Of a stretch of 64,000 nt of DNA, positions 53,480 to 55,390 are shown piece by piece (position 1 is the stretch's first letter; each line of letters begins with the position of its first letter). Made by a program: the position numbers and the translations under genes. This DNA is from Stygiolobus caldivivus (GTDB taxonomy: Archaea > Thermoproteota > Thermoprotei_A > Sulfolobales > Sulfolobaceae): positions 1,984,001-2,048,000 of the forward strand of contig NZ_AP024597.1 in the NCBI RefSeq assembly GCF_019704315.1. The letters run 5' to 3'. The notes under the pieces are model-generated. The model was not told the origin of the DNA. It ran no database searches and saw only the letters and a list, made by a program, of their open reading frames with translations.

Positions 53480-53761
53480 ATGACGAGAGATAAGACGCGT
53501 TATAAATACGGGGATATAATTATACGTGAGAGGAAAGGGTGGTATTATGTTACAAACTAGAGAACGTGAACGGTGACGTAAGGGAAACTTACGTAGGTCC
53601 TTTAATTGACGTTGTAGAATCATATCTAAAAATGAAAGATGGAATTGGGGGTATGGGGGAATCCCCCATGTGCCGCGGCCGGGATTTGAACCCGGGCCAC
53701 AGGCTTGAGAGGCCTGCATACTTACGGCGCGTAGAGCTTGACCGGGCTATACTACCGCGGC
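53480..53761 (+). pseudogene. SSV-type integrase N-terminal fragment int(N), frameshifted
   Basis: ATG 53480 starts [20 protein letters not shown], then YYV; one base appears missing near 53550 (GTTACAAA where GTTTACAAA would keep frame). In the next frame follow [19 protein letters not shown] and [14 protein letters not shown], running into the tRNA-Glu gene read backwards ([13 protein letters not shown]). This closely resembles the N-terminus of the fusellovirus SSV1 integrase, whose attachment site lies inside the gene. Integration cuts such genes in two, leaving int(N) beside the tRNA. The int(C) half is not in the window. Confidence 0.85.
53672..53761 (-). tRNA. tRNA-Glu (CUC) with D-arm intron
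   Basis: Acceptor GCCGCGG/CCGCGGC, anticodon stem CAGGC/GCCTG with loop C-T-CTC-A-A, T arm CCGGG-TTCAAAT-CCCGG, discriminator A at 53671. About 16 extra bases (53721-53736) interrupt the D arm between AAG and TATGC; removal gives a normal D arm. Non-canonical introns of this kind are known in crenarchaeal tRNAs. The 3' end is the attachment site of the SSV-type integrase fragment. Nearly identical to the UUC gene at 54821, inverted. Confidence 0.9.
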
Positions 53762-53762
53762 A

Positions 53763-54820
53763 TTTATATACTTTTTTATGCCGTTTAAAAGATTTACGTG
53801 TAACTATTCCTATGTTGAACATTCGGGAAACTAAGCGCCAAGCTACATCGTCCCATGGGTATAAAAGGGAGTTTTTATTGATTAGGTTTACGACTAACAC
53901 GATTGGCACAGCTAAGGCTTTATTGGCCTTAACACGCTAATGGTGTCACAAAATTAGGACTACTTACCCTTTGCTTATCTCTTATCAAAAAAAGAATTAT
54001 AGTGAAATTTTTAGGCCCCCTGTAACGTCTCATACCATTGTCGATACACTATACACGTAAACGGGCTTACTTCTAGACACTTTATAGCATTACTGGTACT
54101 TAACCTCACTGAGTAAAAATTCTAGCTTAGCTTATAGGAGAAAAGCACGGTATAATACTCAGTGATTTTACTATTCTACATGTCATATTCTTTTACGGCT
54201 CCCATAGCCGTGAATTATACTAGAGGTAATAGGCAGGTAGACCTGACTTTGCACCAATAACATTTTAGTTAATTTTGATCGTAAACTCTACACCCATTTA
54301 GGTGAGGCTCTAGCTCGGCTAACTCCGATACTAAACGGCCGCTTACAGTTTATAAGCCCTAAGGGCCTCACAAACTCAGTACTGTGCTCGGCATTAAAGT
54401 TTAGAGAGGCGTAAAGGACTTTTTAGATGGAATTAACGAAATATCTTGTATATTCAAGAAATACACTGCGTGTTCTTAGCCGTACCTACAGTGATAAGGG
54501 CTAATGAGCTTATCGTTACAGCGGTTTGTAATAAACACTAAGGCGGGACTTTAGTGTGACCTTGAGGCTTAACCGCTTATACCTTTATAAGATTTGGCTA
54601 TCTTAGGTTAAGGCACCGGGCACAGACCGCGGTTAGGATTTAGGGAACTCACGCTTTTCTTAAGATTTAAAGATTAAACGGTATGTAATTATTAAGCATA
54701 TTTGTTGTATAATCTGTAAAATGACAACTATTTCAACGTTATTAATCAGTGATTTATAAGATGAATGTTTATAAGTGTTTACGTAAATCTTTTAACCGAC
54801 TTAGATAGTAAAATATAAAT
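53763..54820. other. 1.06-kb spacer between the inverted tRNA-Glu genes
   Basis: No convincing gene on either strand. The outer 50 bases at each end are related: ACGTAAATCTTTTAA and a TATA(T)AAAT box precede both tRNA genes, so the duplication includes promoters. The interior has many stops in all frames and no strong repeats that I could see. It may be decayed element DNA. Confidence 0.5.
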
Positions 54821-54910
54821 GCCGCGGTAGTATAGCCCGGTCAAGCTCTACGCGCCGTAAGTATGCAGGCCTTTCGAGCCTGTGACCCGGGTTCAAATCC
54901 CGGCCGCGGC
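54821..54910 (+). tRNA. tRNA-Glu (UUC) with D-arm intron
   Basis: Same architecture as the CUC gene: acceptor GCCGCGG/CCGCGGC, anticodon stem CAGGC/GCCTG, loop C-T-TTC-G-A (anticodon 54873-54875), discriminator A at 54911. The D arm contains the same 16-base insertion (54846-54861). The two genes differ at only a few bases, mostly in and near the anticodon loop. A TATA box AATATAAAT ends just before the gene. Followed by an integrase relic. Confidence 0.92.
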
Positions 54911-54948
54911 ACTTCTTTTCCCTTAAATTGAAAGAGGGGTGATTTAGG

Positions 54949-55003
54949 TCGGAAACCATCTAGGAAAAACTGGAAACCATCTTAAACCCAGACTGGAAAC
55001 TAA
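54949..55003 (+). repeat. Three iterated GGAAAC sites before the integrase relic
   Basis: TCGGAAACCATCT (54949), CTGGAAACCATCT (54970) and CTGGAAACTAAT (54992) lie 21 and 22 bases apart, that is two helical turns, between tRNA-Glu(UUC) and the integrase relic. Phased repeats next to an attachment site are typical of recombinase arm sites or autoregulation sites. Function is inferred. Confidence 0.5.
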
Positions 55004-55007
55004 TGAT

Positions 55008-55390
55008 ATGCCAATAATAGATATAGATAAGCTCACAAATGAACAGAAAATTCGATTATTTACATACGCAACTGAAGAAAAGGAAATAACGTATGAACAA
55101 TTAGGAATTTCAAAAGCTACAAGGTGGCGATATAAGAAAGGGTTGAGGGAGATCCCGAAAGAGGTCCTAGAGAAAGTGCTGCAGTTTCTAGCCCCTGACG
55201 AAATTGCGAGAATAGAAGACGTTCTTCCTCATTCTAGCTGAAACAGGGTTAAGGATGGGGGAAGTTTATTCTCTAAGCGTCGAGCAAGTAGACTTGGAGA
55301 ATGGTATAATTAAATTAATGAAAAATAGCGCCACAAAGAGGGCCTACATCTCATTTCTGCATAGGTATTCGAGAGTATACCTTTACATCT
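55008..55390 (+). pseudogene. pNOB8-type tyrosine recombinase relic
   Basis: The first frame (55008-55241) gives 77 residues with DKLTNEQKIRLFTYATEEK and LGISKATRWRYKKGLREIP, the N-terminus of integrases of Sulfolobus conjugative plasmids. A second frame, overlapping from about 55225, gives LILAETGLRMGEVYSLSVEQ and KNSATKRAYISFLH, the box I Arg and the Lys of the catalytic domain. The 100 or more residues that should lie between, and the C-terminal His/Arg/Tyr part, are missing. So it is an internally deleted, frameshifted and truncated gene beside its tRNA target. Confidence 0.75.

Follow-up and report, generated by a model that had tools for sequence, protein, structure and literature searches.

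Two adjacent tRNA-Glu genes of Stygiolobus caldivivus KN-1 very probably form a double attB hotspot that was worn by repeated site-specific integration at both genes. Within the 64,000-nt stretch of the genome that was analysed (the window), an SSV-type int(N) relic adjoins tRNA-Glu(CUC) and a pNOB8-type plasmid relic follows tRNA-Glu(UUC) (Table 1), which confirms the two unrelated tyrosine-recombinase classes named in the original prediction. At the level of DNA and protein comparison, the scars, the identity of the elements and the loss of their distal parts are established. The KN-1 case is real, was correctly read in outline and is ordinary in kind. The use of tRNA-Glu as a target by both integrase types is already published, and a review describes the two integrase classes and their bias towards tRNA genes, the anticodon-loop crossover of SSV1 and the place of tRNA-Glu among the most used targets (PMC8371274). 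What is new is the reuse of both tRNA-Glu genes within Stygiolobus and their derived, rearranged pairing.

Table 1 Features of the tRNA-Glu locus of KN-1 (window coordinates)
Feature	Position	Strand	Basis and remarks
speB-like gene, left chromosomal anchor	48938-49822	+	Synteny
Second pNOB8-type fragment, on the outer side of int(N)	51600-52551	+	pNOB8 33516-34734; intact GNAT acetyltransferase ORF 51765-52382
int(N) relic, SSV1 subtype	53480-53669	+	DNA identity to SSV1; one frameshift near 53550; reads into CUC gene
tRNA-Glu(CUC) gene	53670-53761	-	Anticodon loop CUCUCAA, Rfam, pairwise alignment; att region is the 3′ half, 53670-53715
16-nt D-arm intron of tRNA-Glu(CUC)	53736-53721 (53721-53736)	-	Sequence CTCTACGCGCCGTAAG
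Spacer, 1,059 bp, between divergent tRNA-Glu genes	53762-54820		DNA comparison, Rfam
tRNA-Glu(UUC) gene	54821-54912	+	Anticodon loop CUUUCGA, Rfam, pairwise alignment, attP match
16-nt D-arm intron of tRNA-Glu(UUC)	54846-54861	+	CTCTACGCGCCGTAAG, identical to CUC intron
Plasmid att-proximal arm with phased GGAAACCAT repeats	54913-55007	+	Alignment with pNOB8, pB12E5, S. tokodaii and S. shibatae
pNOB8-type integrase relic	54945-55368	+	Residues 3-92 fused to 264-315 of 439, remainder deleted
DUF87/HerA-like conjugation ATPase fragment of plasmid	58079-58567	-	52% identity to pNOB8; Pfam DUF87, E 3e-4
Segment homologous to pB12E5 17337-18093	59034-59798	-	77%; inverted relative to pB12E5
Segments homologous to pB12E5 34148-35135	59848-60592	+	Include intact RelE-like toxin ORF 60022-60333
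Right chromosomal anchor	61624-62967	+	S. azoricus homology resumes at 61624; TFB gene 61975-62967

The gene pair has the predicted structure: the genes face away from a 1-kb spacer, differ at 3 of 92 aligned positions, share the D-arm intron and remain homologous to about 42 nt upstream of their 5′ ends (about 40 nt had been claimed). Rfam places a tRNA on both genes (E ~1e-10). ARAGORN also detects both but names them tRNA-Thr, because the D-arm intron upsets its anticodon call; the anticodons were read by eye from the anticodon loops. D-loop insertions in both tRNA-Glu genes of S. islandicus have been published (PMC3718332), and the KN-1 intron is therefore ordinary. Within each Stygiolobus species the two genes have the same intron, while the introns differ between the species (3′ end TAAG versus ATAG), a pattern that suggests gene conversion. 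The spacer has no DNA homologue in S. azoricus and three other relatives, and searches for an RNA gene or repeat returned neither an Rfam match nor a second copy in the genome.

The int(N) relic starts with an ATG at 53480, is interrupted by a single frameshift and continues as the antisense of the CUC gene, and its 81% DNA identity to SSV1 over 295 nt bears out the predicted SSV-type int(N) running into this gene. It adjoins the tRNA 3′ end in the position and on the strand known from SSV1 and SSV4, and groups with SSV1 in the int(N) tree (support 0.98), apart from the int(N) of S. azoricus. The original prediction had proposed a search for int(C) and for 3′-tRNA repeats beyond the window, and this search found none that belong to the two tRNA-Glu genes. 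The KN-1 genome contains no int(C) for this int(N), the CUC locus lacks the C-terminal integrase domain and with it the catalytic residues (R...KxxR...Y), and no far-end repeat of the CUC tRNA 3′ half occurs at 49.8-62 kb of the window or elsewhere in the genome. The only C-terminal integrase match in the genome (2101628-2102494) lies inside an element at tRNA-Gln(CUG), which served as positive control: its int(C) and perfect att repeat were recovered, and the same search can therefore detect such parts. The CUC-gene scar is thus what is left of an SSV-type (type I) integrated element rather than an intact example. Known type I elements with their 'suicidal' integrase (SSV1, SSV3/SSV4, pXZ1, pSSVi) likewise have int(N) at the tRNA 3′ end, reading antisense into the tRNA, and an attP that corresponds to the tRNA 3′ half; unlike them, KN-1 has neither int(C) nor distal att nor element body, and its int(N) is frameshifted. 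An int(N) of SSV1 subtype at tRNA-Glu was not seen in the sequenced viruses examined, and the attPs of SSV1 and SSV19 are not tRNA-Glu, but scars in genomes G006, G021 and G023 have this pairing.

At the other gene, the 3′ part of tRNA-Glu(UUC) (54867-54912) is identical to the attP of pNOB8 and pB12E5 at 44 of 46 positions. The att core is followed by the integrase start, so that the pNOB8-type integrase sits beside, not across, the att site. The relic matches the 439-aa pNOB8 integrase at 84% (residues 3-92) and 87% (residues 264-315) identity, and pB12E5 at 86% DNA identity and 91% protein identity over the N-terminal 89 aa; residues 93-263 and 316-439 are missing, and a complete integrase (R...YxxR...Y) is not retained. 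The phased repeats, which the original prediction had correctly noted with the relic after the UUC gene, are plasmid sequence and present in pNOB8 and pB12E5 too. From the att core at 54867, pieces of pB12E5 follow in the order 1-352, 862-1009, 34148-34231 and 34454-35135, with unmatched ORFs and the inverted 17337-18093 piece between the first two and the last two. A relic of a pB12E5-like plasmid is supported because it begins exactly at the att core and most pieces keep the pB12E5 order. Backbone and conjugation genes (TrbE/TraG type) persist as fragments only (the DUF87 piece, pB12E5 17.3-18.1 kb and 34.1-35.1 kb). In the window, the best other match to the att core, as a candidate distal direct repeat, reached 23 of 46 positions against a shuffled maximum of 25. 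Because no distal att is left, we infer the ends of the relic; the distal end probably lies between 60592 and 61624, since S. azoricus homology resumes at the latter position. Other pNOB8-family plasmids in tRNA-Glu (pB12E5/S. shibatae, pNOB8 and the relic in S. tokodaii, which we take to be our genome G004) share with KN-1 the att core, phased repeats, an integrase beside the tRNA, most segments in pB12E5 order and a RelE-like gene near the distal end. The KN-1 relic differs from them in its truncated integrase, the absence of a distal att and the small amount of recognisable plasmid DNA, about 2 kb in pieces up to 60592 within the ~7-kb region right of the UUC gene.

Several genes of the region deserve separate mention. 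S. tokodaii and G018 also retain homologues of the RelE-like toxin near tRNA-Glu, and the S. azoricus copy is frameshifted. The idea that the RelE-like gene is a host anchor for the empty site was discarded, as the gene is also found on pB12E5, pKEF9 and other plasmids. An intact 426-aa ORF within the relic (56379-57659) is 80% identical to an S. tokodaii protein encoded elsewhere (G004:C1:1176966-1178243) and has two copies in G013; neither for this ORF nor for a membrane ORF at 50073-50750 was a plasmid homologue found. The second pNOB8-type fragment, on the far side of int(N), would fit an earlier plasmid insertion at the CUC gene that the later element displaced outward.

The scars recur throughout the family, which upholds the claim of an old integration hotspot. 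Among the 22 Sulfolobaceae genomes in which both tRNA-Glu genes were assessed, with scars counted by hand, 26 of the 44 genes adjoin an integrase scar. The CUC genes divide into five with an SSV-type scar, eight with a pNOB8-type scar and nine without a detected scar, and the UUC genes into exactly the same numbers; these equal counts rule out a preference of either class for one gene. The alignment with relatives that the original prediction had suggested likewise revealed integrase scars there, not a bare common flank. The 5′ flanks of 40-odd tRNA-Glu genes, put to the same test, yielded no comparable integrase scar; the only hits were KN-1 ones that belong to the adjacent gene, and weak matches of 33 nt (E 0.003). 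That each tRNA gene bears a different integrase type, as originally noted, is true for KN-1 but not special: one of each was found in 4 of 22 genomes (KN-1, S. azoricus, G015, G023), with 3.6 expected under independence. Both integrase classes use both isoacceptors. The UUC 3′ half serves as attP in pNOB8, pB12E5, pMGB1, SSV3, SSV4, SSeV and SSV17, and the CUC 3′ half in pKEF9, pSOG1, pSOG2 and pXZ1; an exact-pattern scan of viral contigs found the UUC attP in three contigs, SSV4 among them, and the CUC attP in none. More than one independent integration per gene is evident from the different element lineages in KN-1 and S. azoricus and from the presence of both classes at each gene across the family. 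The survey thereby quantifies tRNA-gene reuse, from the scarred fraction and the equal use of both isoacceptors to independent re-targeting in two sister species. At the CUC loci of G015 and G023, a pNOB8-type scar adjoins the tRNA and an SSV-type int(N) lies ~0.7-1.3 kb further out, which suggests layered integrations of both classes at this gene.

In S. azoricus the tRNA-Glu genes stand in tandem (441607-441697 and 443386-443477, both on the minus strand); an int(N) of pXZ1/SSeV subtype lies after the CUC gene, and a pNOB8-type arm after the UUC gene. As the same class sits on the same gene in both species, and DNA homology extends across int(N) and tRNA (67% over 463 nt) and the UUC 3′ flank (79% over 262 nt), both elements might have entered the Stygiolobus ancestor once and decayed differently. 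Orthology was indeed our initial reading, dropped after comparison of the subtypes, and we now regard a single inherited pair as improbable. The int(N) of KN-1 is SSV1-like and that of S. azoricus pXZ1/SSeV-like, with the two apart in the int(N) tree, and indel and sequence place the pNOB8 arms in different plasmid subtypes, the S. azoricus arm being of pNOB8/G003 type without the 11-nt gap common to KN-1 and pB12E5. For comparison, the likely orthologous CUC scars of G008 and G016, from one genus, are 88% alike over 326 nt. Subtype signatures and one indel thus assign the scars of the two species to distinct element lineages, the S. azoricus scars being short and decayed (int(N) ~130-230 nt, pNOB8 arm ~110 nt). 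Since both element lineages and gene order differ, at least four separate integrations across KN-1 and S. azoricus are implied. A common scar class on a common gene should not be taken for orthology unless the element subtype has been checked. The pNOB8-type DNA on both outer sides of the KN-1 pair (51600-52551 and 54867-60592) might also bring to mind a single virus-plasmid hybrid that spanned both genes and left both scars. This is very unlikely, as each scar extends outward from the 3′ end of its own tRNA, the spacer matches neither plasmids nor viruses, and other genomes carry single-class scars on single genes.

The likeness of the two genes, with their identical introns, few differences and similar 5′ flanks, could be taken as the mark of a recent inverted duplication, dated by the common flank. 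We consider such an origin extremely unlikely. One CUC and one UUC gene are present in 22 of 22 assessed Sulfolobaceae genomes, far apart in the other genera; identical or near-identical 5′ halves with similar 5′ flanks occur with distant genes as well (G003, G005, G014, G015, G024); and the three differing positions are those that usually set the two isoacceptors apart in this family. The "one duplicated tRNA pair" of the original prediction thus gives way to the family's two ancestral, standard isoacceptor genes, which are neighbours only in Stygiolobus and are separated by ~110 kb to 1.1 Mb in the other genera checked. By gene-order comparison, this adjacency is derived. In S. tokodaii the divergent CUC gene adjoins TFB and speB, with the UUC gene 180 kb off; in Stygiolobus, this CUC-TFB-speB locus continues on the speB side and, by synteny, the genes right of TFB (S. 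tokodaii 191676-206868) come from the UUC locus. KN-1 and S. azoricus place and orient the UUC block differently with respect to the CUC block, and the inversion path between the two orders did not reduce to a single event. The breakpoints of this Stygiolobus-specific rearrangement lie among att sites. The integrations themselves might have driven it, recombination between att sites or lodged related elements first joining the UUC to the CUC locus and later re-orienting it, although we rate this cause as rather unlikely. Integrated elements have been linked to chromosomal inversions in Thermococcales (PMC8371274), which motivates the idea without proving it; if true, the tRNA pair would be both a hotspot and a hinge of chromosome rearrangement.

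The history that we propose for repeated integration at both genes most probably proceeded as follows. A fusellovirus or fusellovirus-like plasmid with a split integrase of SSV1 subtype would have inserted by recombination between its attP and the 3′ half of tRNA-Glu(CUC), restoring the tRNA, cutting int and leaving int(N) to read into the gene. A pB12E5-like conjugative plasmid of the pNOB8 family (~38 kb) would have entered the 3′ half of tRNA-Glu(UUC), its integrase and body coming to lie alongside. The recombination chemistry at both att sites is presumed by analogy with work on SSV1. Decay deprived the elements of int(C), of their distal att repeats and of most genes, until neither element could excise and ~7 kb of the plasmid locus were left, with the RelE-like toxin ORF still open. 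Other members of both classes very probably integrated independently at the same two genes in S. azoricus, and both classes did so family-wide. A rearrangement in the Stygiolobus ancestor probably brought the CUC-TFB-speB and UUC loci together, and the divergent arrangement in KN-1 and the tandem one in S. azoricus would go back to a later event. The order of these steps, like the cause of the rearrangement, is our reconstruction.

Comparable cases are known. Two separate tRNA-Glu genes of Sulfolobales are targeted by pXZ1 and SSVA (Peng 2008, cited in PMC8371274); as related there, the integrases are closely related, whereas two classes are involved in KN-1. The tRNA-Thr(GGT) gene of S. islandicus carries an SSV-like remnant in most strains and a pNOB8-type integrase in M.16.27 (PMC3718332). 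It is alike in that one tRNA gene is used by both classes in related genomes; there it is one gene across strains, whereas KN-1 has an adjacent isoacceptor pair in one genome.

Further integrated elements were encountered in KN-1. The 6.4-kb SSV-type element at tRNA-Gln(CUG) (G000:C1:2095968-2102456; L146 9968-16456) has an int(N), an int(C) with one in-frame TAG and a perfect 49-bp att repeat. An element of ~3.7 kb at tRNA-Asp(GUC) (G000:C1:1732795-1736636; L044) carries an int(N) together with an att copy of 44 nt (84% identity). Additional SSV-type int(N) relics lie at 491368, 1776991, 2298505, 1617828 and 1876462 of the same contig, and three of these five adjoin tRNA-Pro(UGG), tRNA-His(GUG) and tRNA-Ala(UGC).
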